Below are positions 27,292 to 45,919 of a DNA stretch of 64,000 nt, one piece after another (position 1 is the stretch's first letter; each line of letters starts with the position of its first letter). Origin of the DNA: Sphingosinicella sp. (lineage in GTDB: Bacteria > Pseudomonadota > Alphaproteobacteria > Sphingomonadales > Sphingomonadaceae); NCBI RefSeq assembly GCF_013911755.1, contig NZ_JACESP010000020.1, positions 1 through 64,000 on the forward strand, written 5' to 3'. The translations under genes and the position numbers were made by a program. The notes beneath the pieces are model-generated. The model was not told where the DNA came from and searched no databases. It saw only the letters and a list, made by a program, of their open reading frames with translations.

Positions 27292-27435
27292 TTTTGTTTT
27301 ACCATTACATTGTTTTTTTGGATTTTCTTCTTCCGATAGGGAGTATTCATCCCCGATACTCGGTCGTCCAGCCGCCTCTGATACCGTTTTGGTTATTTCG
27401 TCTCAAACCAAGGCGAACAGGATTTGGCGGAACGC

Positions 27436-28743
27436 ATGGCGGACATGGCGGCAAGATTCACGACAATCGGGGCGGAAGCCGCGCACCCGGACGACTCCGT
27501 GGCCAGCGTTTTCCACTGCGCCCCGATCCTCATCGCGCTTCGAATCGACAATATCCGGTCGATCGCGAAAGCCTATGGCGAGGCCGCTGCACTCGCAGCG
27601 CAGCAGCATCTTGAGAGCACCGTGTCCGGGCGCGCCACGACGCATGTCGTCGATCGCGCGCTCGGCCGGCTCGATGCGGCGCTCGTCGTGCCGGGCAGCC
27701 CCGAACACTTCACCCAGCAGTTGCGTAGCGTATTTGCCCGTTCGCCGATCCGGTATCTGGACGATTCCATTTTCCTGACCGTGTCCATTGCCTGGTCGGC
27801 GGCGACATTCACGAGCGGGGCAGACATAAGCCCCGCCGGGTTTGCCGCACTTCACGACGCCTTCGGCGCCCCCCTGCCCGCGTGCCCGGATGCCGCGCGC
27901 TATCGCCGCGACATGGCGACCGCCGCGCAGGTGTTCACGGCCGTGGCGGAGGGGCGCCTGTTTCCCGCGTGGCAGGCGGTGAGCGGCGAGGACGAAATCC
28001 TTTATCATGAATGCCTGCTGCGCCTCGTCGGCGACGACACGCCCACGGTGAGCGACGCCGTCGCAGCGCTGGAACGCACAGGCCTCGTGCGCGCGTTCGA
28101 CCAGATCATGCTGTCGCTGGTGCTCGACGAGCTGGAGGCCGATTCCGCAGCGCGACTCGGCGTCAATATTTCCGCCGCGAGTGCGCTTCTCGATCCCTGG
28201 TGGGACGATGCGCTCGCGCGGCTACGCGCGAACCCCGCCGCGACGCGTCGGCTCGTCGTGGAGATCACCGAGACCGCGGCGTTCCCTTCGATTTCCAGTG
28301 CCGCGCGCTTCACATCCGCGCTGCGCGAACTCGGCTGCCGGATCGCGATCGACGATTTCGGCATGGGCTTCAGCTCCGTGCGGAGCGTGCTTGCCCTATC
28401 GCCCGACTATGTGAAGGTCGACGCCTTCTTTCTGCGCCGCGCAGGCCAATCGGCACGATGCCGCAACGCGCTTGCGCACATGATCGGGCTTGCAGGCACG
28501 ATGGCCGCCGGGGTCATCGTCGAAGGCGTCGAGACGGAGGCGGACAGCCGCCTCGTCGCGTCGCTCGGCGCGGACTGGCAGCAGGGCCACTACATCCATT
28601 TCCCCTCCACGCTGCGCCCGTGGATCGCACGCCGCAATGCACCCGCCGCAGCGAGCGGATTTGCATCCACAATGACCGCATCTGGTGGCGCCGCGTTTCT
28701 GCCCGCAAATTCGCCATATCGATCGATCGGACTCTCCGGATGA
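27436..28743 (+). CDS. EAL-domain cyclic-di-GMP phosphodiesterase with degenerate N-terminal domain
   Basis: From ATG 27436 the product is 435 residues; a TTG at 27424 is an alternative and neither has a strong ribosome site. The N-terminal ~150 residues look like a GGDEF-type fold (LIALRIDNIRSIAKAYGE) that has lost the GGDEF loop. The C-terminal domain has the EAL set: Glu-Cys-Leu in place of EAL (YHECLLRL), Asn in NIS, Glu in EITETA, Asp-Asp in IDDFGMGFSS, Lys in DYVKVD, EGVE, and Gln in QQGHYIHFP. All metal- and base-type residues appear kept, so c-di-GMP hydrolysis is likely. It sits directly upstream of the adhesin operon. Confidence 0.85.
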   Translation: MADMAARFTTIGAEAAHPDDSVASVFHCAPILIALRIDNIRSIAKAYGEAAALAAQQHLESTVSGRATTHVVDRALGRLDAALVVPGSPEHFTQQLRSVFARSPIRYLDDSIFLTVSIAWSAATFTSGADISPAGFAALHDAFGAPLPACPDAARYRRDMATAAQVFTAVAEGRLFPAWQAVSGEDEILYHECLLRLVGDDTPTVSDAVAALERTGLVRAFDQIMLSLVLDELEADSAARLGVNISAASALLDPWWDDALARLRANPAATRRLVVEITETAAFPSISSAARFTSALRELGCRIAIDDFGMGFSSVRSVLALSPDYVKVDAFFLRRAGQSARCRNALAHMIGLAGTMAAGVIVEGVETEADSRLVASLGADWQQGHYIHFPSTLRPWIARRNAPAAASGFASTMTASGGAAFLPANSPYRSIGLSG

Positions 28744-28886: not shown

Positions 28887-29666
28887 ATGCCTCCGTTGCT
28901 TTACGAAGACCCCGTCCTTCTCCGGGGCGATCTCCACAAACACGCCGCACTCCTCGCCTGCGAAAGTTTTCAATTCGCGGCGAGCGTCGTGGCCGTTCCG
29001 CTGAACGCATCGGAATTCGCGCTCGCCGCGCGCTGCTATCCAATCGTGTTCGCCGACACCGAGACGACGGTGCCGCTGGCGGTGCTGGGACTTGGCGGCG
29101 ATTCCAATCTGTTCGTGGACGGCGAGGGCCGCTGGTCGGATGGCGCTTACGTGCCGGCCTATGTTCGGCGCTATCCGTTCCTGCCCGTGACCACACCGAA
29201 CAGCGACGCGCTGATGCTGGCGATCGATCGGCCGCGATTGATCGAGCGCGACGGCATGGTGCCAGCGGACGCGAATGGGCTTTTCGACGGCGACACCGCC
29301 TCCCCTCTTGCCGCGCGCGCGCTCGACTATTGCGAGCGCTATCACCGCGATCATTTGCGTACGGTGGAATTCGTGTCGGGTTTGCGGGAGCGCGATCTTC
29401 TCGAAACGCGGCGCGCCGATATCCACCTTCCCGACCAGTCGCAATTCCGGATCGACGGGTTTCGGATGATCGATCGCGCGAAGCTGCGTGCGCTTCCCGA
29501 CAATTGTCTGGGCGACTGGTTCCGCAAGGGCTGGCTCGATCTCGCCGCACTTGCCGAAACCTCTCAGGCGAACTGGCAGACGCTGCTCGATCGTCAGGCT
29601 GCGCGCGCTGCGGCGAACACACCGCCGGCACGCCAGCGATCAACAAGAAAGCGTGCCGATGCGTGA
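28887..29666 (+). CDS. SapC family protein
   Basis: A 259-residue protein of the SapC family, with conserved blocks such as VPLNASEFALAARCYPIVF, AYVRRYPFLP and the C-terminal LPDNCLGDWFRKGWLDL. SapC-type proteins are linked to surface-layer or outer-surface protein secretion in some Gram-negative bacteria, but their biochemistry is unknown. No signal peptide is visible. The stop overlaps the start of the TpsB gene (ATGCGTGA), so it heads a translationally coupled operon with the secretion pore and adhesin. That fits a role in making or presenting the adhesin. Confidence 0.85.
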   Translation: MPPLLYEDPVLLRGDLHKHAALLACESFQFAASVVAVPLNASEFALAARCYPIVFADTETTVPLAVLGLGGDSNLFVDGEGRWSDGAYVPAYVRRYPFLPVTTPNSDALMLAIDRPRLIERDGMVPADANGLFDGDTASPLAARALDYCERYHRDHLRTVEFVSGLRERDLLETRRADIHLPDQSQFRIDGFRMIDRAKLRALPDNCLGDWFRKGWLDLAALAETSQANWQTLLDRQAARAAANTPPARQRSTRKRADA

Positions 29667-31365
29667 TGTTCTCCCGCCGGCCGTGCTCGCGGTCCTGCTC
29701 TGCACCGCCCACGCAGCGGGGGCGCAGGTGACACCCGCCGATATTCCGCGCACCGCGGAGCCGCGGCCGCAGATGCCCGAGCCGATTCCCGAAGCCCGCG
29801 CGACCGCACCCGCGCCCGCGCCGCTGCTGCGTCAGCAGGTCGCGCCGGAAGCCGCCGCCGAAACACGATTCACATTCCGCACACTCGTGATCGACGGCGC
29901 ATCGGCGATTCCCGAAACCGACCTGCGGGCGCTGTGGCGGGCGGAGCCGGGCGAAGAGGTTGCCGTCAGCGCGATCTTCCAGTTCGCCGACGCCGTTACG
30001 CGCGCCTATGCGGCGGAGGGCTATCTCCTCTCCTTCGCGCTCGTTCCCGAGCAGGCGCTCTCCGAAGGCGTCGTGCGTATCCAGGTGATCGAGGGGCACG
30101 TCTCCGCGATCCGCGTGAAACGGAACGGCACGGTGCGCGAAATCCGCAGCGTGAGCGACGCAGCGGGCGAACTGCTCGCGGTGCGGACGGCGGCGCGCAT
30201 TCTCGAATCGCGCCCGCTGAAGGCAGAGGATCTGGAGCGCGCGCTGCTGCTGATGAACGACCTGCCGGGGCTCGCCGCGACATCGCAGCTCGCGCCATCA
30301 CCCGATACGCCGGGCACGTCGCTGCTCACGATCGATCTGTCGCACCGCGCCGTGCGCGCCGACGCGAGCTATACCAACATGATGTCGGGCGTGCTCGGCC
30401 GCGACATGCTGGGCGGCGGGCTGCGTTTCAGCGGCGACAGCGGCGAGGTGCGCCTGCGCGGATGGGCGAGCCCCGACGGCGACCGCTACCGCTCCTTCAC
30501 CGGCGAAGCGACCAAGTGGCTCGGCCCGAACGGTGTCCGCCTGGATGGGCGCGCGAGCTTTTCGTGGAGCCGGCCGATCGGCGAACTGCTCGAAGCGATC
30601 CGCTATCGCGGCGAGACACTGAACGTCGATCTCGGCATTGCGGTCCCGATCCGCCGTAGCCGCGCGAGCAACATCGGCCTCACCCTTGCCGGGCACGTGA
30701 TCGATTCCGATTCCACGGTTCTGCGCACGGCGTTCACGCGCGACCGGATGCGCACGGCGACCGTCGATCTCGATTTCGACTGGGCCGACACCGGCGGCGG
30801 CATCAATCTCGTTCGCGTCGGCGCGATCAAGGGCTTCTCCGGGCTCGGCGCAACGAGGGATGACGATCCGCTGCGCACGCGCATGAACGGCTCCGCGTCC
30901 TTCCTCAATGTCACGCTCTACGCGCAGCGCTATCAGCCGGTGGCGCGCGTGGCGGGCGGCGATTTCGGGATTGTCGCCAAGGGCTCCGGCCAATGGGCCG
31001 CGACCGATGCGCTGCTGAGCGCGGCGGAATGCAGCTATGGCGGCGCGGGCTTCGGGCGCAGCTACGACAGCGGCACGGTGAGCGCCGATCACTGCGTGAT
31101 GGGCGGGCTTGAAGCGCGCTGGCGGCGCGGGGTGGCGGGCAAGATCGGGGTCGGCGTTCACGGCTTCGTCGATGGCGGCATCGGCTGGCAGAAGGGACGC
31201 CTCGATACCGGCGAGGCGCGGCGTCATTCCGCGTCCTCGGCAGGCGGCGGCATTTCGGTGCAGATCGGGCCGCGCCTCACCGCGCAGGCGGAGGCCGCGC
31301 GCGGCCTTTCGGGGCCGACCGAGCGCAAATGGCGCGCCAATTTCTCGATCTCTCTCTCGCTATGA
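29659..31365 (+). CDS. TpsB outer-membrane transporter (ShlB/FhaC family)
   Basis: The 568-residue product from ATG 29659 has a signal peptide (ends AAGAQ) and a proline-rich linker. A POTRA region follows (FRTLVIDGASAIPETDLRAL, then VEGH-like VIEGHVSAIRV), and then a 16-strand barrel ending ISLSL. In Omp85-superfamily TpsB proteins a conserved VRGY loop plugs the pore; here the equivalent position reads GFGRSYDSG, a divergent form. It would export the giant TpsA protein encoded 560 bases downstream. The start overlaps SapC by eight bases and its end overlaps the next gene in ATGA. Confidence 0.92.
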   Translation: MRDVLPPAVLAVLLCTAHAAGAQVTPADIPRTAEPRPQMPEPIPEARATAPAPAPLLRQQVAPEAAAETRFTFRTLVIDGASAIPETDLRALWRAEPGEEVAVSAIFQFADAVTRAYAAEGYLLSFALVPEQALSEGVVRIQVIEGHVSAIRVKRNGTVREIRSVSDAAGELLAVRTAARILESRPLKAEDLERALLLMNDLPGLAATSQLAPSPDTPGTSLLTIDLSHRAVRADASYTNMMSGVLGRDMLGGGLRFSGDSGEVRLRGWASPDGDRYRSFTGEATKWLGPNGVRLDGRASFSWSRPIGELLEAIRYRGETLNVDLGIAVPIRRSRASNIGLTLAGHVIDSDSTVLRTAFTRDRMRTATVDLDFDWADTGGGINLVRVGAIKGFSGLGATRDDDPLRTRMNGSASFLNVTLYAQRYQPVARVAGGDFGIVAKGSGQWAATDALLSAAECSYGGAGFGRSYDSGTVSADHCVMGGLEARWRRGVAGKIGVGVHGFVDGGIGWQKGRLDTGEARRHSASSAGGGISVQIGPRLTAQAEAARGLSGPTERKWRANFSISLSL

Positions 31366-31895
31366 CCCGGAGCAAGGACCGCTTCATGATCGCGCTGCCC
31401 GCCATCCTCGTCGCACTCGCCGCCGCCGCGCCCGAAACACCAAAGGCCGACATCCACGGCGACTGGGTCGTGCAATGCACGGCGGCGGCGGACGTGCCGC
31501 CGTGCGAGATCGCGCAGGCCGCGACATCGAAGAGCACGGGCGAGCAGATCATGCGCGTCGCCTTCGCCTATCGCGGCAGCGGCGAACGCTATGCCGTGCA
31601 GATCCGTCTCCCGCTCGGCGTGCGGCTCACGCAGCCGCCATTGCTGCGCATCGACGAAACCAGCGATCTGGAAGGCTATGGCTACACGCGCTGCGACGCG
31701 GGCGGCTGCTACATCGAGCGCCTGCTCGGCACGCCGGAGATCGCACGGCTGCGCACGGCGAAGGCGGGTGCGCTCGCCGTTCTCGGCAGCGACGGCAAGC
31801 CGATGGTGCTGCCGCTTTCCTTCAACGGTTTCGCCGAGGCGCTCGATGCATCGGCAATCCAGAACACGGCGTGGGCGAAAGCCTCCAACCGCTGA
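31362..31895 (+). CDS. Invasion-associated locus B (IalB) family protein
   Basis: The 177-residue product has a signal peptide (VALAAAAPE) and the IalB pattern: GDWVVQCTAAADVPPCEIAQ with paired cysteines, a central ISL-like strand LPLGVRLTQPP, and a second cysteine pair YTRCDAGGCYIE. Two disulfides are therefore likely in the periplasm. IalB proteins affect erythrocyte invasion in Bartonella, but homologues are widespread and mostly unexplained. ATGA overlap with the TpsB stop ties it to this operon; an ATG at 31386 is an alternative start. It may act as a periplasmic helper for the adhesin. Confidence 0.88.
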   Translation: MTRSKDRFMIALPAILVALAAAAPETPKADIHGDWVVQCTAAADVPPCEIAQAATSKSTGEQIMRVAFAYRGSGERYAVQIRLPLGVRLTQPPLLRIDETSDLEGYGYTRCDAGGCYIERLLGTPEIARLRTAKAGALAVLGSDGKPMVLPLSFNGFAEALDASAIQNTAWAKASNR

Positions 31896-31924: not shown

Positions 31925-34900
31925 ATGGCCCCGCGTTTCGTATTCGACAAGCGCCGCATCATTCTTGCGGGCACCAGCCTTGCCGCACTCGCGCTCGCGG
32001 GCGCGGCGCACGCGGGCCCCTCCGGCGGCACGGTGAGCACCGGTAGCGCATCGATCGCGGGCGACGGCACCGGCCACGTGACCGTGACGCAGACGAGCGA
32101 CCGCGCGATTCTCGATTGGAACAGCTTCTCGATCGGCACGGGCGAAAGCACGCGCTTCATCCAGCCGGGCAGTACCTCGGTCGCCGTGAACCGCGTGACG
32201 GGCGCCGACCCCTCCTCGATCCTCGGGAACCTGACCGCGAACGGGCGCGTCGTGCTCATCAACCGGAACGGCATCGCCTTCGGCAAGGATGCGACCGTGG
32301 ACGTGGGCGGGCTCGTCGCGACGACGGCGGACATCGACCGCCAGGCGTTCATGGCGACGGGATCGCTGAACTTTTCGGGCGGCAGCCTGCCCGCCGCATC
32401 GATCGTCAACGAAGGCCGCATCACCGTGCGCGACGCGGGGCTTGCCGCGCTGGTCGCGCCGCGCGTGCGCAACAGCGGCACGATCGTCGCCAACCTTGGC
32501 CGCGTCGCGCTGGGCGCAGGCACGGGATTCTCTGTCGATTTCTACGGCGACGGTCTGGTGTCGTTCGCGCCGGACGGCATTGTTGCGGCCACGATCGGCG
32601 ACGGCGGCTCCGCGCTTGTCGAGCACAGCGGCGTTATCGAGGCGAGCGGCGGCAAGGTGCTCTTGAGCGCGGCAGCCGCGCGCGATGTCGTCAACGCTTC
32701 GGTGAACGTGTCGGGCGTCGTGCGCGCGGACGGTATCAGCCGCAAGGGCGGCAGCATCGTGCTTTCGGGCTCGGGCAGCGTCACCGCGAACGGACGCATC
32801 ACCGCGGACAGCGACAAGCAGGCGGGCGGCACCATAGCGATCAGCGGCGGCAGCGTTTCGCTCGGCGGGCTGATCAGCGCCAGCGGCACGGACGGTGGCG
32901 CAATCGCGGTAGACGCGCAGGGATTGCTCTCGCTCGCGGAGACCGTGGCGGCGACCGGCCGTCTCGGCGACGGCGGCACGATCCGGTTCGACGCCGGACG
33001 CATCATCGAAACCACGACAGGCCGCAACGATGCCTCGGGCGCGATTCACGGCGGCGCGATCCGCGTCGTCACCGAAGGCGGGCTTGCCACATCGGGCACC
33101 TATCTGGCGGACGGCGTCTACGGGCGCGGCGGCCAGGTCGATCTCAGCGGCGCCAGCGTGTCGCTGCTCTCCACGCAGATCAGCGCACGCGGTCGGCTTG
33201 CGGGCGGGCTCGTGCGCGTCGGCGGCGCGTTTCAGGGCGGGAAGACGCCCGATCCTGCGCAGGCCTATCATTCGACGTTCCTCGGCCGATGGGGCGCGCG
33301 CGAAGCCCTGTCGAGCGCGGACACGCTGTTCGTGGGCAACGCGGCTGCGATCGATGTTTCGTCCTCGCGCGGCGACGGCGGCACGGCGGTGTTCTGGTCG
33401 GACACGCGCACGACGTTCCTGGGATCGGTCGACGCGCGCGGCGGGCGCGGCGGTTCGGTGGAAATCTCCTCCGCGGGCGATCTTCGCCAGGCCGCGCTCG
33501 ACTGGGTGCTGACCGGCGCGGGCGGGCACCTGCTGCTCGATCCGAAGAACATCGTGATCGGCACCGTCGACGATGTCAAAAGCTGGCAATATGCCGCCGT
33601 TCTCGGTGCGGTCTATGCGAACAGCAGCAATCCCGATGCATTCGAGAATTCCGTTGCGGCGGCGCTCGATACATTCGATTCGTTCGGATCGTCGGTGGCG
33701 CTCAATGCGGCCGGAACGCGCATGGCGGTCGGCGCGAGCGGAGACGACGGCGCGAACAATCTCACGACCAATGTGGGCGCCGTCTATCTGTTCAGCTTCA
33801 GCGACGGCGATTTCTCGAACGGCACGCTGACCAGCATCGTCGGCAAGGGCTATACAGGCGGCAAGAATATCGACGTCGCCGCACTCGCCGCTGCCGACGG
33901 ATTCGGTACGTCTGTCGCGCTGAATGCGACAGGCGATCTGCTCGCGGTCGGCGCCATCGGCGACGACGGGAAGAATGAAGACGCGAGCGGTTCGGGCGCT
34001 GCCTATCTGCTCCGTTTCGCGGACGGCAATTTCAGTGGCGGTACGCATGTCGGAACGATCGGCAGGAATTATAACGGCGCGGGCGACGTTGCCATCGCCG
34101 TTGAAGCCGACGCCGGCTTCGGACGCTCGGTCTCGCTGAACGGCGACGGCGACCTGCTTGCGATCGGCGCGTGGAACGACGACGGCTTCGGAAACGTTGC
34201 CGATAAATCGGGCGCGGCCTATCTCGTCCGCTTCGCCGGCACGGATTTCGGCGGCGGCACGCACGCCGGGACGGTGGGCTACGGCTATGCAGGGCCCGGC
34301 GATATTAATCTCGCGCTCGACGTCGGTGATTATCTCGGCGTCTCCGTCGCATTGAACGCTGCCGGTGATCGGCTCGCCATAGGCGCGCACGGGGACAACG
34401 GCTTCGGCAACAGCGCGGCGGAATCGGGCGCGATCCATGTGATCGGTTTTTCCGACACGAACTTCTCCGGCGGTACCAAGCTCGGCACCATCGGCAAGGG
34501 CTATACGGGTGCCGGAGATACGAATGTCTCTGCGATCGTCGGCGGCGACATGTTCGGGTACGCGGTCGCGATGAATGCGGACGGCACGCGCGTTGCCGGA
34601 ACCGCACTCGGCGACAATGCCGCGACGAACAATATGTCCAACTCGGGCGCCGTGCACCTGCTGTCGTTCGCGAACACCGATCTTTCCGGCGGCACCTACG
34701 AAGGCATCATCGGCAAGGGCTACACCGGCGGCAAGAACACCGACGTCGCCGATCTGGAAGCCGGCGACATGTTCGGCTTCGGCCTCGCGTTCAATGCGGC
34801 GGGCGACCGGCTGGCGGTCGGTGCTTACAGCGACGACGGCGGCACCAACAGCCTGAGCGGCGCGGGCGGCGTCTATCTGATGCGCTTCGCGGACGGCAAT

Positions 34901-37900
34901 TTTTCGGGCGGCGCGGTGGCGGGCGTGATCGGCCGGGATGCCTGGCGGACGGGCGACATCGATGTCGCGAACCTGCAGGCGAATGACCGGTTTGGCGATG
35001 CCGTCGCACTCAACGCCGAAGGAGACCGGCTCGCCATTGGTGCGCTGGCAGACAGCGGCGCACTCAACGACACGTCAAGCGCGGGTGCCGTGTATCTGTT
35101 CAGCTTCACGGACGGTGATTTTTCGGGCGGCACGCTCTCCGGGATCATCGGCAAGGGATATAGCGGCGGCAAGAATCTCGACATCGCACGGCTTCAGGTT
35201 GACGACAATTTCGGATCAACGGTTGCACTCAACGCAGCCGGAACACGGCTCGCGATCGGAGCCCTCAACGACGACGGCAGCGACGACTCCACCTCAAACG
35301 CGGGTGCCGTGTATCTGATTGATTTCAATGACGGTAACTTCTCGAACGGGAATGTCAGCGGGATCATCGGAAAAGGATATTCGGGCTTTAGCGGCGCCAA
35401 CGATCTTGACGTCGCCAGCCTCGAGGATAGCGACCGGTTCGGCCGCGCAGTCGCACTGAACGCCGCGGGCGATCGCATGGCTGTCGGGGTGACCGGTGAT
35501 GACGGATTCAACAACTCTGTCACAGATTCAGGAGCCGTACTTCTTTTCACGCTGGGAAGCAGTGCGTCCCTGACGGGTACGATCGGTGCCGGTTATGCCG
35601 GACCCGATGATTTGAATGTTGCGCTTGCGGCCGGTGACCAGATCGGCGTTTCAATATCACTGAACGCGGCAGGAGACCGTCTCGCCGTCGGCACGATCGT
35701 CGACGATGCAAGTGACGACCTGACAAGCAATGCTGGTGCAGTCTATCTGTTTTCCTTCACCGACGCTGATTTCGCTGGCGCTTCGCATGTCGGTACGATC
35801 GGCAAGGGCTATGCAGGCGGCGGCGATGTTTCCCTGGCGCTGGATGCAAACGACTCCTTCGGAATAAGCGTATCCCTGAACGCGGCGGGCGACCGGCTTG
35901 CAGTTGGCGCATTTGGCGATGCCGGCAATGGCAACGCTGCAGCGAACGCGGGTGCGGTATACCTCTTCAGCTTTACCGACAGGAACTTTTCCGGCGGCGC
36001 AGTCTCCGCAAAGATCGGCAGCAGCTACACTGGCGGCAAGAATCTGGGCTTATCCAACCTGGAGGCAAATGACCGGTTCGGCATATCAGTCGCGTTGAAT
36101 GCCGCGGGCGACCGGCTTGCCGTCGGCACGTTCCTGGATGGCGGCGCGTCAAATGGGGCTGCAAGTTCCGGCGCCGTCTATCTGTTCCGCTTCACCGATG
36201 GTGATTTCAGCGGTGGCCGGCTCTCGGGCATTTTCGGCAAGGGCTATGGACGAAACCGCGATCTCGCGCTCAATCCCACACCGGACACTGCGGACCAATT
36301 CGGCATATCCGCAGCGCTAAACGGCGCGGGTGACCGGCTAGCGGTTGGGGCTTTCGGGGACCATGGTGCCGAGGGCGGGACAACGCCCTACGGCGCCATC
36401 TATCTGTTCAGCTTCAGCGACGACCAGTTCTCGGACGGTGCGCTCGAAGCCATTGTCGGCAAGGGTTATACGGGCGGGAAGAATATCAATCTCGCGTCGC
36501 TTGAATCGGGCGACGGGTTCGGCTTTTCCGTCGCGCTGAACGATACCGGCAATCGCATGGCGGTTGGCGCGTGGGGGGATGACGGTTTCGCAAACGGCGT
36601 GGCGGGATCGGGTGCCGTGCATTTGTTCAGTTTCACTGACAGCACGTTTTCCAACGGTGTGCAGTCAGGGACCATCGGCACGGGCTATGTCGGCGTCGGA
36701 GACATTAATGTTGCGCTTGGCTCCAGCGACTCCCTGGGTTCGGCCGTCGCGCTGAACGCGGCGGGTGATCGGCTAGCGGTGGGTGCTTATCTCGATGATG
36801 GAAGTACCAACGCCACGACAAATTCGGGCGCGGTTTACCTGTTCCGCTTCACCGACACGGATTTTGGCGGCGGGTCTCACGCCGGCACCATCGGGAGCGG
36901 ATATGCCGGCGTCAGCGGAATGCCGACGCTTGAAGACAGCGACTATTTCGGCATTTCTGTCGCGCTGAACGCGGCCGGCGATCGGCTCGCCGTCGGCGCC
37001 TCGGGCGATGACGGCGCGGGCAACGCGGCGAGTGCCTCCGGCGCGGTGTATCTGTTCACCTTTACCGATGCGGATTTTGGCGGCGGTACCTCCGCCGCGA
37101 GGATCGGTACGGGCTATTCCGGCGGAAAGAATCTCAATCTCATCCCGCTCGAAGCTGGCGACCAGCTTGGCCGATCAGTCGCTTTCAATGGCGATGGCAA
37201 TTATCTGGCCGTGGGCGCCAATCTGGACGATGGTTTCAGCAACGCAGTGCAGAACGCGGGCGCTGTTTACCTATTCAGCTTCACCGACACGAGTTTTTCG
37301 GGTGCGGCGCACAAAGGCACGATCGGTGCGGGCTACACGGGCACGTGGGACACGAATATCGTGCTCGACGTGGATGATAATTTCGGCGTGTCGGCGACGC
37401 TGAGCGCGGACGGCCTGCGGCTGGCGGTGGGGGCGAACGGAGATGACGGCGCAAGCAACGCCATCTCCAACAGCGGTGCCGTCTATTTGTTCTCGACCGA
37501 ACGGCCGAGCGCGTTTTCCTATGCCGACCATCCGGATGCCACCGTCAACATTTCGGCAACGTCGCTCGCCGCGCTGCTTGCCGCCGGCACCAACCTGACG
37601 CTGCAGGCATCGAACGACATCACCGTCTCGGCGGCAGTGACGGTGGACAACGCGCTTGGCGACGGCGGCGATCTGACGCTGCAGGCGGGGCGCAGCGTGC
37701 TCCTCAATGCAAGCATCGCCACCGACAACGGCGACCTGACGCTGATCGGGAACGATAGGCTGGCGAACGGCGTGGTCGATGCCTACCGCGACAGCGGAAC
37801 CGCAGCCATTACCATGGGCGTGGGCACGACGATCACCGCAGGCACCGGCAGCGTCTCCATCGATCTGCGCGACGGCGCGGGGAAAACCAATACCGCTGCC

Positions 37901-40900
37901 GGCGACATCACGCTGCGCGCGATCACGGCAGGCGCGCTCACCGTGACGAACGCCAGCACGGCGGGCGACATCCTGCTCAGCGGCAACATCACCACGAGCG
38001 GCGCGCAGCACTATACGTCCGAACGCGACGTGAAGCTTGCGGCGAGCACGACCATCGCGGTGTCGGGTGCGGCGACGCTCGGTATCGACGCCGCGCGGCA
38101 GCTTCTTCTCGACGATGCCTCGAAGATCGAGAACACATACAGCGGCGGCCTGACGCCGTTCGACGCCATCGTCATCGAGGTGAACCGGCGCGCTATCGCC
38201 GCGACCGGCTCGCTTGCGGGCATCCAGATGGACGCTGCCGCCGTCATCCGCACCGCCGCCGGGGGCGCGGGCGCGATCAATCTCTCAGCACGCGGCGGCG
38301 CCACTGATGGGCGCGGCATCAACATGATCGGCGCCTCCAGGATCGAATCGCTCGGATCGGGCAAGATCACGCTGAACGGCACGGGCGGCGGCGGCACGGG
38401 CGGAACCGCTTACGGCGTGTTCCTGACCCAGTCGTCGGAGATCATCGGCACGGACGGCGACATAGAGATCATCGCCGAATCGACGGGAACCGGCCCGGCG
38501 CCGGGGATGCACGTGTTCAACGGTTCGCAGGTGCGCACGACGGGTACGGGCGACATCACGCTGCAGGGCACCGCCTCCGCCGCCGGTGCAGGCGTATGGA
38601 TATCGGGGAGCGGCGCCAGCGTGCACACGGCTTCGGGCGATATCACCATCAACGCGGCCAGCGCCGTCGGCGGCAACCCGGATTTCGAGATCGCCTCCGG
38701 GGGATCGCTGGGCGTCTCCGGCACGAACGACATCACGATCAACGCAGACACGGTTGCATTCATGGCCGCGGTTTCCGGAAACGGCATCCTCACCATCCGG
38801 CCGCGCACGGACGGGCGAACCATCGGGCTCGGCGCGGGCGCGGGCGACCTATCGCTGAGCGTGTCATCGCTCTCCAACATCCAGAACGGCTTCTCCGAAA
38901 TCGTCATCGGCAATGCGGATGCAGGGGCAATCACGGTTGGCAGCGGCCTCACGACCTTCAACGACAGGCTGCGCATCGTGGGCGGCAGCACGCTTGCGAT
39001 CGGTGGCGGGATCGATGTGGGCCTCAACCGCCTGACGCTCGACATCGCAGGCGGAACGACGCAGACCGCAGCGATCTCCGCCGAGCAGCTCCTGCTGCTG
39101 GGCGCGGACAGCGACTACACGCTGGACCATGCGGACAACGCTGTCGGCTTCCTCGCCGCCGATATCGGGACGGGCGCGCTCGTGCTCAATCACGGTGCGG
39201 CGACCGGTCTTAATGTCGGCAGCTTCGGCGGGGTGGACGGCATCACCGCAGGCAGCGCGTCCGTAACCACGACTGATGCTTCCGGCGTGATCTCCATCGA
39301 GCAGGACGTGACCACAAGCGGCGCGCAGAGCTTCACATCCGAACTCGCATCGATCGATGTCAAATCCGGGGTGCATCTCCTCGTCACGGGCAAGGCGACA
39401 CTCTCCCTCACGGCGGGCACCCAGATCGCCATTTTCGAAGCCACGCTGGAGAACAGCTACGCGGGTGACGGCGCCGCCTTCGATGCCATCTCGGTGACGG
39501 CAAACAACGATGGAATCGCATTCGCCAGGCCGGATGGCCGCAGGAATACCGGGCTCTTTGCCTTCGATGCGCTGATCCGGACCGCGGCGGGAGGCGGCGG
39601 CGGCATTGCGCTCTTCGGGCGCGCAGGCACCGGCACGCTCGATGCGATCGGCGTGGATATCGACGGCAGCACGATCCAATCGCTCGGCGCCGGGGCGATC
39701 GAGATCGAAGGGCACGGCGGCGCGGGCGCTGTCGGCGGCGGCAAATCCGGTGTCCTCGTTCACGATACGGCGACAACGCCGGTCGGCGCGCGCATCGAAA
39801 GCAATCTCGGCGCGATCACGATCACCGGCACGGCGGGCAATGCGACGGTGGGCGACGACAATGTCGGCGTCGCCATCATCCAGAATTCGTCGGTCGCCTC
39901 CACCTCGAGCAATTCCAGCGCGGGCACCGTGGCGATCATCGGCACGGGCGGCGGCACGGGAACCTCCGGCGGCAATCATGGCGTACTTCTTGATGGCGCG
40001 CTTGCGCTCTCGAGCAATGGCGCGAACATCAGCATCACCGCCACAGGCGGCATCCCGGCCTCCGGCACGAACAATGACGGCCTCCGCCTCGCGGGAACCG
40101 GAACCGTGGTCCAATCCGGCACCGGCGAAATCGTGATCGCGGCGGCAGCCGGAACCGATGGCCTCGACTTCGACAACCTCGCCGGAAGCAATGCCTTGGA
40201 CGCCGGTTCGGGCCGCTGGATCCTGTATCTGGGGAACCCCGACGACAGCGTGTTCGGTGGCCTCGCCAGCGGCAGCCTGCCGATCTGGGGGCAGACGATC
40301 GGAACACTCCCCCCCGCATCCGTTGGAGCCGGAAACCGTCACGTCTTCGCCTTCGCTCCCACACTGATGGCGAGCACGGACTTCGAGGACGACAAAGTCT
40401 ACGGCGAAACCTATTCTTGGCCGACGCTCGTGCTCGGCACGCACTATGCGCTTGATGGCCTCGTCGACGCATCGGCCTACGGCGATATCTGGACACAGGA
40501 GACGCTCGCAACGATCGGCCTCTCCGGCGCGCCCATACTGAGTTCGGCGGGCACCGCAGCCGCCGCGAACGTCGCCGGTTCGCCTTACAGCATCAGCATT
40601 GCCAACGGCACGCTGGCAAGCAGCGCCGGCTATACGTTCGGCACCCCCTCCTCCACCGGCGCGCTCACCGTGACGCGGAAAGCGCTCACCCTCGCCGGTG
40701 TGACCGCCGCGGGCAAGACGTATGACGGCAATGCCGACGCCGACCTTTCCGGCGGCACGCTGGGCGGCGTGGTGGGCAGCGACGATGTCGCGTTCGTCGC
40801 CGGATCGGGCACGTTCGCGAGCCGCAATGTTGGCACCTGGAGCATCACCGCCACAGGATACACGCTGTCGGGTGTGGATGCGGGCAACTACACGCTGACG

Positions 40901-43033
40901 CAGCCGACCGTCACCAATGCAACCATCACCGCGAAGACACTGACGCTGACGGGCGTCTCCGCTGCGGGCAAGGTCTATGACGGCGACGCAGACGCGGACC
41001 TTTCGGGCGGATCGCTCATCGGTATTATCGGCAGTGACGACGTCGAATTCTCGGCAGGCTCGGGGCTGTTCGCCAACAAGAACGCGGGGACCTGGAGCGT
41101 CACCGCATCGGGCTACACGCTCACCGGCGGCGACGCGGGCAATTATACACTGACGCAGCCGACGATCGCCAATGCGACGATCTCGCCGCGCACGCTGAAC
41201 ACGGGCGTCACGGCAAACGGCAAGACCTATGACGGGACGCGCGATGCCGCCCTCACCTTCTCCACCGGCGACATCGTGACCGGGGATTCGGTGACGTTCG
41301 CCTATGATGCGCAGTTCGCCGACAAGGCCGCCGGGACGGGCAAGTCCGTCAGCCTGGTGGGCAGCGTAACGCTGACGGGAACGGACGCGGCGAACTATAC
41401 GCTCGCGCTCGATCCGGGCGACGTGTCCACGCTCACGGCGGACATCACGGCGCGAACGCTGACGGTGAGCACGGTTGGTGCGACGGACAAGGTCTATGAC
41501 GGCGGGACGTCGGCGGGCCTCGCGTTCACGACGGCGGACATCCTTTCCGGCGATATGGTGACGTTCGATTACACCGCGAACTTCGCGGACAAGAACGCCG
41601 GCGTCGGCAAGAGCATCACCGCCTCCGGTGTGTCGCTCTCGGGCTCGGACGGCGGAAATTATATTCTCGTCCTCGATGGCGCGCTGCTCGCGGGGCTTTC
41701 GGCCGACATCGCCGCAAGGACGCTGAACATCACGGCCGTAGAGGCCTCCGAAAAGGTATACGACGGAACGACGACGGCCATGCTGGCGATCACCGCGACG
41801 GGACTCGTCGGCGGCGACGATGCGGCGTTCGGTTATGATGCGCGCTTTGCCAACAAGAATGTCGGCAGCGGAAAAACCGTCTCGGTTAGGGACGGCATAA
41901 GCCTGAGCGGTGCGGATGCGGACAATTATGTTGTCGTGCTCGATCCCGCGCTGCTCGGCGGTTTTTCGGCGGACATCACCGCGAAGACGCTCAGCATCAC
42001 AGACGTGCTCGCGCTTGCCAAAACCTACGACGGTTCGCGCGGCGCCGATCTCGCCTTCGTCACCGACGATGTCGTTAGCGGCGACACGGTGGGCTTCGGT
42101 TACGAAGCGCTGTTCGCAGACAAGAACGCGGGCGCAAACAAGGCCATCGCTGTGACCGGCGGCGCGGTGGCGCTGACCGGCGCCGACGCGGGCAATTACG
42201 CGCTCAGCCTCGACGCGGCGCTGCTGCTCGGGCTCAGCGCCGATATCGGGCGCAAGACGCTGACAGTCACGGATGTGGCGGCCGCCGAAAAGACCTATGA
42301 CGGCACGCGGAACGTGCCGCTCGATTTCACGACCGTGGATATTCTTGCCGGCGACAACGTCGCGTTCGACTACGAGGCGCTGGCCGCCGATCGCAACGCC
42401 GGAACCGGCAAGAGCGTGACCGTGGGCGGGGTTTCGCTGTCGGGCGGGGATGCGGGCAATTACGATCTCGTTCTGGACGACAGCCTGCTCGGCGGCCTCA
42501 CGACGGACGTTTCCGCGAAGGCGCTGACCGTCGTTGTCGATGACAAGTCTCGCGCGCGCTTCCAGCCCAATCCGGCGTTCACCTATCACCTCGTCGGCCT
42601 CGCCGAGGGCGACGACGCCTCGGTGGTCAGCGGCGTGGCGCTGCATACGGCCGCGACGGGCGAATCCCCCGCCGGGCACTATGCGATCGAAGCGTCCGGC
42701 GGATCGGCTCCGAATTACGTGCTCGCCTACACGCCGGGCACGCTCACCGTGACCGGCCACCTGATTTCGCCCTACGATCAGGACCGCATCCAGCACGTGC
42801 CCGGCAGCCTCAGCGGCAGCGACGGTTTCGGCGGGCTGGTCTCGATCGCACCCACGCCCACGCTGCAAACGCTCTCGGGCTACACGAGCGAAGCGGCGCT
42901 GGATGGCCAGGAGCCGTTCTGTTCCGATCCGGGGAAACGCTCGGGCGGCCAGCGTCTGCTTCCGCACCTCCAGCTCAATATGAGCGGCCGCACGCTCTAC
43001 TGCCTCGGCAGCCCCTCGCGTTTTGCGCAATAG
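31925..43033 (+). CDS. Giant two-partner-secretion adhesin (TpsA) with 18 FG-GAP-like repeats and YDG/MBG domains
   Basis: ATG 31925 follows AGAGG and gives 3702 residues. After a signal peptide (ALAGAAHA) comes the TPS/haemagglutination-activity domain (about 30-280). It includes AILDWNSFSIG and LINRNGIAFG, a variant of the usual NPNG motif. The motif HLLLDPKNIVIGT lies near residue 535. Residues about 585-1858 are 18 tandem ~71-residue units with consensus FGxSVALNAAGDRLAVGAxGDDG...GAVYLFSFTD. A beta-helix-like region (about 1870-2800) follows. Residues about 2919-3610 are seven KTYDG...NAGNY (YDG) domains plus one MBG domain, then a short Cys-containing tail. The pore is encoded upstream in the same operon. 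The role in surface attachment is inferred from family. Confidence 0.93.
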   Translation: MAPRFVFDKRRIILAGTSLAALALAGAAHAGPSGGTVSTGSASIAGDGTGHVTVTQTSDRAILDWNSFSIGTGESTRFIQPGSTSVAVNRVTGADPSSILGNLTANGRVVLINRNGIAFGKDATVDVGGLVATTADIDRQAFMATGSLNFSGGSLPAASIVNEGRITVRDAGLAALVAPRVRNSGTIVANLGRVALGAGTGFSVDFYGDGLVSFAPDGIVAATIGDGGSALVEHSGVIEASGGKVLLSAAAARDVVNASVNVSGVVRADGISRKGGSIVLSGSGSVTANGRITADSDKQAGGTIAISGGSVSLGGLISASGTDGGAIAVDAQGLLSLAETVAATGRLGDGGTIRFDAGRIIETTTGRNDASGAIHGGAIRVVTEGGLATSGTYLADGVYGRGGQVDLSGASVSLLSTQISARGRLAGGLVRVGGAFQGGKTPDPAQAYHSTFLGRWGAREALSSADTLFVGNAAAIDVSSSRGDGGTAVFWSDTRTTFLGSVDARGGRGGSVEISSAGDLRQAALDWVLTGAGGHLLLDPKNIVIGTVDDVKSWQYAAVLGAVYANSSNPDAFENSVAAALDTFDSFGSSVALNAAGTRMAVGASGDDGANNLTTNVGAVYLFSFSDGDFSNGTLTSIVGKGYTGGKNIDVAALAAADGFGTSVALNATGDLLAVGAIGDDGKNEDASGSGAAYLLRFADGNFSGGTHVGTIGRNYNGAGDVAIAVEADAGFGRSVSLNGDGDLLAIGAWNDDGFGNVADKSGAAYLVRFAGTDFGGGTHAGTVGYGYAGPGDINLALDVGDYLGVSVALNAAGDRLAIGAHGDNGFGNSAAESGAIHVIGFSDTNFSGGTKLGTIGKGYTGAGDTNVSAIVGGDMFGYAVAMNADGTRVAGTALGDNAATNNMSNSGAVHLLSFANTDLSGGTYEGIIGKGYTGGKNTDVADLEAGDMFGFGLAFNAAGDRLAVGAYSDDGGTNSLSGAGGVYLMRFADGNFSGGAVAGVIGRDAWRTGDIDVANLQANDRFGDAVALNAEGDRLAIGALADSGALNDTSSAGAVYLFSFTDGDFSGGTLSGIIGKGYSGGKNLDIARLQVDDNFGSTVALNAAGTRLAIGALNDDGSDDSTSNAGAVYLIDFNDGNFSNGNVSGIIGKGYSGFSGANDLDVASLEDSDRFGRAVALNAAGDRMAVGVTGDDGFNNSVTDSGAVLLFTLGSSASLTGTIGAGYAGPDDLNVALAAGDQIGVSISLNAAGDRLAVGTIVDDASDDLTSNAGAVYLFSFTDADFAGASHVGTIGKGYAGGGDVSLALDANDSFGISVSLNAAGDRLAVGAFGDAGNGNAAANAGAVYLFSFTDRNFSGGAVSAKIGSSYTGGKNLGLSNLEANDRFGISVALNAAGDRLAVGTFLDGGASNGAASSGAVYLFRFTDGDFSGGRLSGIFGKGYGRNRDLALNPTPDTADQFGISAALNGAGDRLAVGAFGDHGAEGGTTPYGAIYLFSFSDDQFSDGALEAIVGKGYTGGKNINLASLESGDGFGFSVALNDTGNRMAVGAWGDDGFANGVAGSGAVHLFSFTDSTFSNGVQSGTIGTGYVGVGDINVALGSSDSLGSAVALNAAGDRLAVGAYLDDGSTNATTNSGAVYLFRFTDTDFGGGSHAGTIGSGYAGVSGMPTLEDSDYFGISVALNAAGDRLAVGASGDDGAGNAASASGAVYLFTFTDADFGGGTSAARIGTGYSGGKNLNLIPLEAGDQLGRSVAFNGDGNYLAVGANLDDGFSNAVQNAGAVYLFSFTDTSFSGAAHKGTIGAGYTGTWDTNIVLDVDDNFGVSATLSADGLRLAVGANGDDGASNAISNSGAVYLFSTERPSAFSYADHPDATVNISATSLAALLAAGTNLTLQASNDITVSAAVTVDNALGDGGDLTLQAGRSVLLNASIATDNGDLTLIGNDRLANGVVDAYRDSGTAAITMGVGTTITAGTGSVSIDLRDGAGKTNTAAGDITLRAITAGALTVTNASTAGDILLSGNITTSGAQHYTSERDVKLAASTTIAVSGAATLGIDAARQLLLDDASKIENTYSGGLTPFDAIVIEVNRRAIAATGSLAGIQMDAAAVIRTAAGGAGAINLSARGGATDGRGINMIGASRIESLGSGKITLNGTGGGGTGGTAYGVFLTQSSEIIGTDGDIEIIAESTGTGPAPGMHVFNGSQVRTTGTGDITLQGTASAAGAGVWISGSGASVHTASGDITINAASAVGGNPDFEIASGGSLGVSGTNDITINADTVAFMAAVSGNGILTIRPRTDGRTIGLGAGAGDLSLSVSSLSNIQNGFSEIVIGNADAGAITVGSGLTTFNDRLRIVGGSTLAIGGGIDVGLNRLTLDIAGGTTQTAAISAEQLLLLGADSDYTLDHADNAVGFLAADIGTGALVLNHGAATGLNVGSFGGVDGITAGSASVTTTDASGVISIEQDVTTSGAQSFTSELASIDVKSGVHLLVTGKATLSLTAGTQIAIFEATLENSYAGDGAAFDAISVTANNDGIAFARPDGRRNTGLFAFDALIRTAAGGGGGIALFGRAGTGTLDAIGVDIDGSTIQSLGAGAIEIEGHGGAGAVGGGKSGVLVHDTATTPVGARIESNLGAITITGTAGNATVGDDNVGVAIIQNSSVASTSSNSSAGTVAIIGTGGGTGTSGGNHGVLLDGALALSSNGANISITATGGIPASGTNNDGLRLAGTGTVVQSGTGEIVIAAAAGTDGLDFDNLAGSNALDAGSGRWILYLGNPDDSVFGGLASGSLPIWGQTIGTLPPASVGAGNRHVFAFAPTLMASTDFEDDKVYGETYSWPTLVLGTHYALDGLVDASAYGDIWTQETLATIGLSGAPILSSAGTAAAANVAGSPYSISIANGTLASSAGYTFGTPSSTGALTVTRKALTLAGVTAAGKTYDGNADADLSGGTLGGVVGSDDVAFVAGSGTFASRNVGTWSITATGYTLSGVDAGNYTLTQPTVTNATITAKTLTLTGVSAAGKVYDGDADADLSGGSLIGIIGSDDVEFSAGSGLFANKNAGTWSVTASGYTLTGGDAGNYTLTQPTIANATISPRTLNTGVTANGKTYDGTRDAALTFSTGDIVTGDSVTFAYDAQFADKAAGTGKSVSLVGSVTLTGTDAANYTLALDPGDVSTLTADITARTLTVSTVGATDKVYDGGTSAGLAFTTADILSGDMVTFDYTANFADKNAGVGKSITASGVSLSGSDGGNYILVLDGALLAGLSADIAARTLNITAVEASEKVYDGTTTAMLAITATGLVGGDDAAFGYDARFANKNVGSGKTVSVRDGISLSGADADNYVVVLDPALLGGFSADITAKTLSITDVLALAKTYDGSRGADLAFVTDDVVSGDTVGFGYEALFADKNAGANKAIAVTGGAVALTGADAGNYALSLDAALLLGLSADIGRKTLTVTDVAAAEKTYDGTRNVPLDFTTVDILAGDNVAFDYEALAADRNAGTGKSVTVGGVSLSGGDAGNYDLVLDDSLLGGLTTDVSAKALTVVVDDKSRARFQPNPAFTYHLVGLAEGDDASVVSGVALHTAATGESPAGHYAIEASGGSAPNYVLAYTPGTLTVTGHLISPYDQDRIQHVPGSLSGSDGFGGLVSIAPTPTLQTLSGYTSEAALDGQEPFCSDPGKRSGGQRLLPHLQLNMSGRTLYCLGSPSRFAQ
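33677..37498 (+). repeat. 18 tandem ~212-bp coding repeats (FG-GAP-like blades)
   Basis: Each unit encodes FG-x-SVALNAAGDRLAVGA-x-GDDG, then N-x(5)-SGAVYLFSFTD, FSGG and GxIGKGY. Linkers are of two kinds: GGKN (units 1, 5, 7, 11, 13, 16) and GxGD (units 2, 3, 4, 9, 10, 14, 17). Units 8, 12 and 15 have altered linkers and unit 9 is shortened. The pattern resembles integrin-alpha beta-propeller blades without the calcium loop. Confidence 0.85.
40679..42756 (+). repeat. Seven YDG domains plus one MBG domain in the adhesin
   Basis: The motif K-x-YDG recurs seven times about every 87 residues, each followed by GD-x-V-x-F, FADKNAGT and DAGNY-x-L. An eighth unit has the MBG2 form (AFTYHLVGLAEGDD). 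These immunoglobulin-like domains commonly form stalks near the C-terminus of large secreted adhesins. Confidence 0.85.
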
Positions 43034-43130
43034 ACGCCTTAAATTGACAGTCCTAATGCCATATTATTGATTGCGTCGAGGGCGTGAGCCCTGCAGATGC
43101 AAGGGGACGGTCAAACGGGAGAGGGTGTTG

Positions 43131-44900
43131 GTGCGGCTGGGCAGGCTGCAGCGCTGGCTTTGGGGCGGCTTTGCCGGCCTTGCAGCCGCTTGCGCCCCTG
43201 CCCGCGCGGAACCCGCGCCGGTACGTCCCAACTTCGTGCTTATCCTGGTCGATGACGCAGCGCTGATGGATTTCGGCGCCTACGGCGGCGAAGCGCGTAC
43301 CCCCAATATCGACCGGCTCGCTTCGGCGGGCGCGCTGTTCACGCACTACCGCACCTCGCCGCTCTGCGCGCCGTCGCGCGCGATGCTGCTCACCGGCATC
43401 GACAATCACCGGAACGGCGTTGCCACCATCCCCGAGGTGCTGCCGCCCGAACACGAGGGGAAGCCGGGCTACGGCCTGCGGCTTGCGCCCGAAGCGGTCA
43501 CGGTCGCGGAGCGGCTGCGGCGTGCGGGCTATCGCACCTACATGACGGGCAAGTGGCACCTTGGCAGCGGCAAGGGCGACCTGCCGCCTTCGCATGGCTT
43601 CCAGAAGTCGTTCGCGCTCGATGCCTCCGGCGCCGACAACTGGGAACAGAAGCCCTACATGCCGTATTACGATACGGCACCGTGGTTCGAGGACGGCAAG
43701 CCCGCGACACTGCCCGCCGATTTCTACTCGTCGGAATTCATCGTCGACCGCATGATCGACTATCTGGAAACGGACCGGGCCACGGGCGACCCGTTCTTCG
43801 CCTATGTGGCGTTCCAGGCTGTGCACATCCCGGTGCAGGCGCCGCGGTCCTATACGGCGCGCTACGAGGCGGTCTACGACAAGGGCTGGGACAGTGTCCG
43901 CACGGCACGCTGGCAGCGCGCGCAGGCGATGGGCCTGATCCCGGCCGGCGCCCCTGTCGCCGCCAAACCCGCCGGCCAGCGGCGTTGGGATGCGCTTCCC
44001 GACCCCGAGCGGCGCCTGCTCGCGAAAAGCATGGCGGTGAACGCCGGCATGATCGAGGCGATGGACGACCACATCGGCCGGCTGATCGCCTATCTCGAGA
44101 AGCGCAGTGCGCTGGCGAACACGGTGTTCGTCGTCACCTCCGACAATGGGCCTGAGCCCAATGAACCCGTCAGCCAGCGCGGCTTTCCGCTCTGGATGCG
44201 GATGAACGGCTACGACCAGAACCTGGACCGGCTCGGCGAGAAAGGCTCGTTCGTCTCGATCGGCCCGGAGTGGGCGACCGCCGCGGCAGCGCCGCACAGC
44301 CTGTTCAAGTTCTATGCGTCCGAAGGCGGGCTGCGCGTGCCGTTCATCATGTCCGGCCCCGGCATCACCGCGCAGCCGCGCGTGTCAGCCGCCGCCTTTG
44401 TCACCGACGTGGCGCCGACACTGCTCGACATCGCCGGTATCGAGGGCGCGGGCGGCATGACGATGACCGGCCGCAGCCTTCGCCCCGTCCTCAGCGGCGC
44501 GGCCGATCACGTCTATGCGCCCGATGCGGCGATCGGCATGGAGGTTTCGGGCAACGCCGCGCTCTACCGCGGCGACTACAAGCTCGTCCGCAACCTGCCA
44601 CCGCACGGTGACGGGCAATGGAAACTCTACAATCTCGCGCAGGACCCCGGCGAAACCCGTGACCTCGGCAGCACCGAACCTGCACGCCTCCGGTCCATGC
44701 TCGCCGACTATCGTTCCTATGCGAAGTCGATGGGCGTGCTCGAGATTCCGGAAGGATACGACCCCTTCCGGCAGATCACGCTCAACACACGCATCAAGAT
44801 CCTGAAACATCACGGCTGGGCGCTCGGCGGCATTCTGCTCGGCGGCGTCGCACTCGTCATTCTTACCCTGCGTCTTATACGCAAACGGAGGCCCGCTTGA
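43131..44900 (+). CDS. Type I sulfatase, exported
   Basis: The GTG at 43131 is chosen because GGGAGAGG ends six bases upstream; TTG and GTG codons just before it are too close to that site. The 589-residue product has a signal peptide (ACAPARAEP), metal-binding Asp41-Asp42 (LILVDDAALMD), and the formylglycine motif Cys79-Ala-Pro-Ser-Arg. It also has GKWHLG, TSDNG, and a C-terminal membrane anchor (ALGGILLGGVALVILTLRL) followed by Arg/Lys. It would cleave sulfate esters in the periplasm after the cysteine is oxidised. Its TGA overlaps the TTG of the next gene. A formylglycine-generating-enzyme gene lies three genes downstream on the opposite strand. Confidence 0.9.
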   Translation: MRLGRLQRWLWGGFAGLAAACAPARAEPAPVRPNFVLILVDDAALMDFGAYGGEARTPNIDRLASAGALFTHYRTSPLCAPSRAMLLTGIDNHRNGVATIPEVLPPEHEGKPGYGLRLAPEAVTVAERLRRAGYRTYMTGKWHLGSGKGDLPPSHGFQKSFALDASGADNWEQKPYMPYYDTAPWFEDGKPATLPADFYSSEFIVDRMIDYLETDRATGDPFFAYVAFQAVHIPVQAPRSYTARYEAVYDKGWDSVRTARWQRAQAMGLIPAGAPVAAKPAGQRRWDALPDPERRLLAKSMAVNAGMIEAMDDHIGRLIAYLEKRSALANTVFVVTSDNGPEPNEPVSQRGFPLWMRMNGYDQNLDRLGEKGSFVSIGPEWATAAAAPHSLFKFYASEGGLRVPFIMSGPGITAQPRVSAAAFVTDVAPTLLDIAGIEGAGGMTMTGRSLRPVLSGAADHVYAPDAAIGMEVSGNAALYRGDYKLVRNLPPHGDGQWKLYNLAQDPGETRDLGSTEPARLRSMLADYRSYAKSMGVLEIPEGYDPFRQITLNTRIKILKHHGWALGGILLGGVALVILTLRLIRKRRPA

Positions 44901-45919
44901 CCGAACCGCTGAGACTGCTGGGCGCCCCGGGCTCGCCCTATACGCGCAAGATGATCGCGCTGCTCCGGTACAGGCGCATTCCCTACGCGATCCTCTGGGG
45001 CAGCTACAGGCAGCCGCCCGCCGGCCATCCGGTTCCGAAGGTGAAGCTGCTGCCCACGGTCTATTTCCCGCTTCCCGACGGCACGCTCGACCCCGTGGTG
45101 GATTCCTCGCCGATCATCCGGCGACTCGAAGCCGAACATGGCGGGCGCGAGGCGCTTCCCGGCGATCCCGTGCTGGCGTTTCTCAACCACCTGATCGAAG
45201 ACTATGCGGACGAGTGGCTGACGAAGGCCATGTTCCACTACCGCTGGGCGTTCGCCGAAGATGCCGCGAATGCCGCGCCGCTGCTTGTATTCTGGATGGC
45301 CCCGACGATGCAGACGGAACTCGCCGCGCAGGCGGCGGACATGTTCGCCGACCGGCAGATCAGCCGGCTCTACGTCGTCGGATCGAACGACACGACGGCC
45401 GAAACGATCGAACTCAGCTACCGGCGGTTCCTTGCCGTTCTGGATGCGCTGATTGCAAGGCGTGGCTATGTGCTCGGCGCGCGGCCATCCTCCGCCGATT
45501 TCGCCATTCACGGGCAGCTCGCGCAGCTTGCCGTCATCGAGCCGACCTCCGCCGCGATCGCCGCGCAGACCGCGCCGCGCGTGCGGGCATGGATCGACCG
45601 TGTCGAGGATCTCTCGGGCGTCGAGCCGGCCACCACAGACTGGTTTTCGCGCGATGAGCTCACCGCGCTGCGCCCGCTGCTCAGCGAGATCGGACGGGTT
45701 TATGCACCGTTTCTGATCGCGAACGCCAAAGCGGTGATGGCAGGCGCCGAAATCGTGCAGACGGAAATCGACGGTCGCCCCTGGACGCAGCCCGCCTTCC
45801 CGTATCAGGCGAAATGCCTGCAGTGGATTGGGGATGCGTTTGCGGCGCTTGGTACGGATGACCAGGCCGCGGTGCGGACGCTTCTCGATCGCACCGGCTG
45901 CGAAGAGCTTCTGCCGTGA
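44897..45919 (+). CDS. Glutathione S-transferase-like protein
   Basis: A 340-residue protein beginning with a thioredoxin-fold GST N-domain (LLGAPGSPYTRKMIALLRYRRIPY, cis-Pro region KLLPTVYFP, SSPIIRRLE). A helical C-domain contains GARPSSADFAIHGQLAQL. The unit is followed by about 100 extra residues. The start is TTG 44897, which overlaps the sulfatase stop (TTGA) and is preceded by GGAGG. No signal peptide is present, so it acts in the cytosol while both neighbours are exported. Its relation to the sulfatases is unclear. The sequence in strings longer than twenty is not given here; the fold call rests on the N-terminal block. Confidence 0.8.
   Translation: MTEPLRLLGAPGSPYTRKMIALLRYRRIPYAILWGSYRQPPAGHPVPKVKLLPTVYFPLPDGTLDPVVDSSPIIRRLEAEHGGREALPGDPVLAFLNHLIEDYADEWLTKAMFHYRWAFAEDAANAAPLLVFWMAPTMQTELAAQAADMFADRQISRLYVVGSNDTTAETIELSYRRFLAVLDALIARRGYVLGARPSSADFAIHGQLAQLAVIEPTSAAIAAQTAPRVRAWIDRVEDLSGVEPATTDWFSRDELTALRPLLSEIGRVYAPFLIANAKAVMAGAEIVQTEIDGRPWTQPAFPYQAKCLQWIGDAFAALGTDDQAAVRTLLDRTGCEELLP

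Follow-up and report, generated by a model that had tools for sequence, protein, structure and literature searches.

Strings of predicted six-bladed, integrin-like propellers at one site in the shaft of a family of two-partner secretion adhesins

A giant protein encoded by Sphingosinicella sp. is very probably a two-partner secretion (TPS, type Vb) exoprotein, with three six-bladed propellers of the integrin type breaking its shaft at one fixed site. Among its relatives the number of blade units is, with a single exception, a multiple of six. From this we consider it probable that TPS adhesins gain and lose whole six-bladed propellers, and that between one and eight complete ones hang from a single fixed site of the shaft, since only closed propellers would return the chain to the point at which it leaves the beta-helix. 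Throughout, the window means the whole stretch of DNA that was analysed, 64,000 nucleotides (positions 1 to 64,000 of contig NZ_JACESP010000020.1, forward strand).

The gene, tpsA, is one frame on the + strand running from an ATG at 31925 to a stop at 43033 and encoding 3702 amino acids. By Pfam and a pattern scan, its TPS domain is followed by a first part of the shaft, the 18 FG-GAP_2 units, more shaft, the seven YDG domains and finally MBG_2. A first-pass annotation of this DNA had placed at these coordinates an adhesin with a TPS domain, a blade array and a YDG tail, which is confirmed by the frame and by Pfam; it had also proposed 18 FG-GAP-like blades, flanked by beta-helix parts and a YDG/MBG stalk, and on this Pfam and the pattern scan agree. 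The features are as follows.

29659..31365, +, tpsB, outer-membrane transporter partner with POTRA_2 and ShlB (Pfam; start codon picked by eye)
31329..31895, +, IalB-family gene between tpsB and tpsA, its 5' end overlapping the end of tpsB (Pfam)
31925..43033, +, tpsA, giant adhesin (frame and Pfam)
32009..32803, +, TPS secretion domain, residues 29–293 (Pfam, E 5e-34)
32804..33574, +, shaft ahead of the array, with LLLDPKNIVIG near its end (from sequence; beta-helix fold assumed)
33575..33670, +, stretch 5' of unit 1, presumed to contain the strand closing the first propeller (by analogy with strand E65-72 in the model of a six-unit relative)
33671..34978, +, hexad 1, units 1–6 (pattern scan, DNA units, window model)
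34979..36286, +, hexad 2, units 7–12 (pattern scan, DNA units; units 7–10 poorly modelled)
36287..37510, +, hexad 3, units 13–18, unit 18 partial (pattern scan, DNA units; putative limits, from relatives)
37511..40690, +, shaft 3' of the array, with conserved TLQASNDI near its start (sequence comparison; putative fold)
40691..42523, +, seven YDG domains (Pfam; outer limits approximate)
42524..42748, +, MBG_2 domain, residues 3534–3608 (Pfam)
43071-44900, sulfatase
45916-47559, sulfatase
47544-48425, FGE-type maturase

Membership of the TpsA proteins is indicated by the N-terminal TPS domain, which scores 118.7 bits against PF05860 (curated cut-off 33.5), by a score of 74.1 against TIGR01901 (cut-off 29.1) and by the adjoining TpsB gene. 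In a search of the genome, the window TpsA was the sole PF05860/TPS match, the gene beside it the sole POTRA_2 match, and all FG-GAP_2 matches were confined to the tpsA frame. Within the protein, Pfam reports FG-GAP_2 (PF14312) in 12 stretches at E 1e-78, YDG in seven at E 9e-100, and MBG_2 once. The FG-GAP_2 match is far beyond chance: 13 of the 15 listed unit matches exceed the 23-bit PF14312 cut-off, three of the 18 units being absent from that listing. We infer that the protein is exported through TpsB, lies at the cell surface and is used in adhesion.

By the pattern scan, the 18 units start at residue 583; the first 17 are of 68–76 residues and the 18th is partial. They had been called nearly identical, a description that does not hold, as pairwise protein identity is 37–67% with a mean of 49%, and DNA identity among units 1–17 is 56–71% (mean 64%). 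Tandem Repeats Finder listed no DNA array at score 50. The calcium-binding DxDxDG loop of integrin-type propellers is missing from the window array, in which a search for the pattern D.[DN].[DN]G gave no occurrence. The earlier suggestion that the loop had been lost is nevertheless not borne out, the match being to FG-GAP_2.

Relatives were collected in one scan of 84,980 named species genomes with two flank motifs, tblastn with the window array and its flanks being used to confirm and rank the matches. The scan matched 349 stretches, of which 229 were confirmed; the best 80 of the 229 were retained, amounting to 72 loci. Among these best 80, near kin of the window array are found in Sphingosinicella, Sphingobium SYK-6 and Blastomonas. 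The other bearers, under submitters' names and many of them MAGs, are Beta- and Gammaproteobacteria, Nitrospirota, Nitrospinota, Cyanobacteriota, Melainabacteria, Bdellovibrionota, Thermodesulfobacteriota and Verrucomicrobiota; the family spans eight phylum names, several represented by single MAG contigs. Closer to the window, and with its own genome counted in each case, the unit profile at E 1e-6 matched 6/6 genomes of the genus, 9/396 of the order and 3/385 of the class, and whole-genome searches found PF14312 in 24/298 genomes of the family. The PF14312 matches of G006, G007, G032, G115, G159 and G175 gave no match to the unit model.

The arrays counted below number 66: the window, 61 of the 72 loci, L048, L132 and L136, and one plasmid (L211). 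In the kept arrays with an LLDP motif, 30–48 residues separate it from the first unit (core model count), and 27–49 separate the last unit from the downstream motif, save for three rows at 4–5 where the loose pattern matches early. Because these distances are steady on both sides, the array is taken to occupy one site of the shaft. Sixty of the 66 arrays share their frame with a TPS domain; of the six others, L152, L180 and L186 start near contig ends, L153 is a split gene, and L162 and L199 are without explanation. TpsB is present in 55 of the 66 loci, and of the eleven misses five (L161, L162, L167, L168 and L179) had several kb upstream yet no TpsB. A complete plasmid of Comamonas antarctica carries 12 units with TpsB immediately upstream; when plasmids were queried with the downstream flank for shafts lacking an array, the sole matches were Comamonas antarctica and a partial one in Aquicella lusitana, and no empty site came to light. 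Variations in gene order are also seen. In the Massilia/Duganella group, tpsB is downstream of tpsA, not upstream (L185-L188, L190-L196, L198, L200, L201 and L205). An uncultured alphaproteobacterium (L204:4124-17362) has three successive TPS frames followed by one TpsB, with divergent blades. In another genome of the window's genus (G150, L048:8569-19998) there is no shaft between TPS domain and closing strand; the array still has 12 units.

By the core model count, 65 of the 66 arrays are divisible by six: 27 have 6 units, 19 have 12, eight have 18, two have 24, one has 30, six have 42 and two have 48, giving 1, 2, 3, 4, 5, 7 or 8 sets of six per array. Only six are divisible by seven, every one of them a 42-unit array. 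The sole exception to the rule of six, in Sinorhizobium medicae (L153:8369-14677), has 11 units, and an in-frame stop parts its TPS part from the array. It should be noted that the count includes three genomes with two arrays apiece (L161/L162, L152/L165 and L178/L203) and that most records in it are drafts or MAGs, where repeats could collapse. L161, L162 and L171 were retained despite an odd flank, the LLDP pattern being absent and the tblastn match extending into the flank, and L048 was retained although its shaft ahead of the closing strand is missing. Excluded were six arrays that reach a contig end (L137, L139, L160, L182, L184 and L202), L183 (41 units, running off the contig), L145 (22 units and stretches of X) and L197 (flank only). 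L189 and L204 were set aside as divergent, with 11 matches that make 12 with one weaker unit recognized by eye, and with further TPS frames that could not be counted. Outside the count but consistent with it are L130 (18 units, some weak) and Sphingosinicella soli, split over two contigs (15 + 3). Also outside it is a second tpsA-like gene of G095 (L135:4261-12062), its frame broken around unit 6, whose pieces give 6 matches and 11 matches, the latter along with a weak unit recognized by eye.

Judged from the repeats themselves, a six-unit register is carried by the long arrays. Six was the best of periods 2–11 in all 19 arrays of at least 18 units, about nine lineages by our reading of the tree, with p < 0.05 in 16 of them; in some arrays, including that of the window, period 12, a multiple of six, does better than six. 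For the window array alone the period-six contrast is 1.3% (p 0.14, not significant), and six is the best period in 3 of the 19 12-unit arrays. Between proteins, units at the same place modulo six had the top mean in 10/10 group comparisons, by 0.1 to 3.5%, with another offset winning more single pairs when the group of 18 is set against that of 24 and more. Sixth units are longer, and at the position of an Ala in first blades they often carry Val or Ile; window units 6 and 12 retain Ala there. No unit-to-unit orthology was visible between the window array and two 12-unit relatives from its genus.

The first-pass annotation had likened the units to integrin propeller blades and proposed AlphaFold as a check. 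Propeller-like domains are indeed predicted, albeit in a window model of modest quality, but they form sets of six rather than the seven-bladed integrin type. A natural six-unit relative is predicted, with good scores, to make six full blades, with a strand (E65-72) ahead of its first unit taken as the closing strand. For the window (residues 534–1733, 7 rows) the best model has a mean pLDDT of 67.6 and a pTM of 0.47, and the other four have mean pLDDT from 57.8 down to 28.2. Its confident parts are units 1–6 (unit means 62–81) and 11–16 (70–82), with units 7–10 at 42–50. It contains two six-unit domains, the second of which, units 11–16, is out of register with 13–18; the construct ends at unit 16, and the shift can be attributed to the cut there. 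Both confident parts align to integrin heads, and to TolB over ~255 residues at 2.7–2.9 Å; the first also aligns to nvWrap-T, titled 7-bladed. Integrin heads rank top in the comparisons of both the relative and the window models, and the matches as a whole mix seven-bladed folds (integrin heads, nvWrap-T) with six-bladed ones. When the PDB was searched by sequence with the unit profile, nothing matched at E 0.1. By prediction, then, the fold is six-bladed, the counts in sixes and the six-blade model departing from the seven blades per ring of integrin-type propellers, and the strands and structural matches are consistent with ring closure.

The units could nevertheless be thought to build seven-bladed propellers of the kind found in integrin alpha and in ordinary FG-GAP proteins, any spare blades being unfolded or shared. 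The ranking of integrin heads points that way, as do the seven PF14312 matches in each of five small FG-GAP_2 proteins from the family; in two of these the unit model gives 7 and 6. We dropped this reading, and regard it as very improbable, on the divisibility of the counts by six in 65 of 66 arrays against by seven in six (all 42-unit); exactly six units in 27 of the arrays and the six full blades of the six-unit model also speak against it. If the array were instead a rod or an open superhelix, it would be a spacer drifting in length as units are gained and lost. Long tandem arrays of surface proteins often serve as spacers, and the YDG repeats of these same proteins do drift in number. That the counts shift in sixes, that the sequences have a period-six signal and that six-bladed domains are predicted make such a rod most unlikely, and it was dropped on the same divisibility evidence.

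Could the multiples of six have arisen by accident, through shared descent or through assembly? Many of the rows are closely related: the six 42-unit arrays belong to Blastomonas and its kin, and 15 six-unit arrays to Massilia, Duganella, Rugamonas and Pseudoduganella. Repeat collapse is also conceivable in draft and MAG records. However, on a flank tree of 63 rows (L153, L180 and L186 were left out for their short flank) the count changes at least 17 times, because of which shared descent does not readily explain the sixes. If any number were equally reachable, all changes would land on sixes by chance with a probability of ~6e-14, a rough figure given that the tree is a quick one, with support below 80 on 16 of 60 inner branches and very long branches for L048 and L166. 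The window units are only about half identical, and two complete records, the Comamonas antarctica plasmid (12) and Sphingobium SYK-6 (18), obey the rule. The YDG repeats serve as a control: in the 31 proteins that have closed ends and one YDG or more, they number 1 to 24, and 8/31 are divisible by six (binomial 0.13 against the one-in-six expectation). YDG repeat number thus drifts freely in the same proteins whose blade arrays keep to sixes, and we see scarcely any likelihood in an accident.

The near-exclusive sixes across distant bacteria suggest instead a string of complete propellers, changed one whole propeller at a time, and with units coming in sixes, a six-bladed propeller, not the seven-bladed one of integrins, seems to be the natural module. 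In two-partner secretion the TPS domain is targeted to TpsB, the polypeptide is passed outwards, and folding of the shaft starts at its N end. In the window array the propellers would be units 1–6, 7–12 and 13–18, with the strand ahead of the first unit completing the sheet of the last and so closing each propeller. A propeller with entry and exit strands in one blade could bud from a shaft loop and leave the shaft undisturbed, whereas five or seven units would give an open or overfull ring. With entry and exit side by side, whole propellers may be added or removed while the shaft stays unbroken; arrays of 1, 2, 3, 4, 5, 7 and 8 hexads would exist because whole propellers come and go in this way. 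Propellers commonly bind ligands, and for this reason the string is likely to be a multivalent ligand-binding side arm for adhesion.

Upstream of the tps genes lies a gene for an EAL-domain protein of the c-di-GMP phosphodiesterase type (27424-28743, +), and c-di-GMP control of the adhesin is possible. The region 3' of the adhesin (43071-48425) contains the two sulfatases, a GST-like gene and the FGE-type maturase; a link to sulfated polysaccharides is conceivable. The EAL, sulfatase and maturase genes fit a surface role for TpsA and prove nothing.

With TpsA exoproteins of the filamentous haemagglutinin type the window protein shares the TPS domain, the adjoining TpsB gene and large, repetitive make-up; it differs in the array of 6–48 blades that its family has at a fixed shaft site and, in the window, in the YDG/MBG tail. 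With the integrin alpha propeller and bacterial FG-GAP propellers it shares the FG...GA motif, four-stranded blades and a good structural match, but the sets are of six, not seven, several stand in a row, and the window array is without a DxDxDG-like loop. Highly repetitive beta-propellers, in the portion of PMC9218822 consulted, likewise string many similar blades together, as many as 47, and 15 blades are there predicted to fold as 7+8; in contrast, blade counts in the window family go in sixes. BapP of Pseudoalteromonas tunicata is also a surface adhesin with a predicted propeller, but, according to the excerpts of PMC12153261, a single five-bladed one on a beta-sandwich stalk, and it is said there to be without the beta-helical structure of TPS adhesins. 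The first-pass annotation knew of no well-described TPS adhesin with this layout. Among the matches listed in the open PMC literature we too found none that deals with FG-GAP arrays of TPS proteins, nor was there such a description in the consulted portions of PMC6851490, PMC12153261, PMC8023676, PMC3192720 and PMC9218822; the layout is not a one-off, however, as 66 arrays are now counted in the window and its relatives.

The finding points to an adhesin class absent from the literature searched, in which TPS shafts display strings of integrin-like propellers. How the blade number of a propeller is set is an open question, and PMC9218822, a broad survey, sees in the portion consulted no counting system accompanying blade amplification. 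Arrays of 6–48 blades that go in sixes, beside YDG repeats that drift, would offer a direct system in which to test ring closure as a selected feature.
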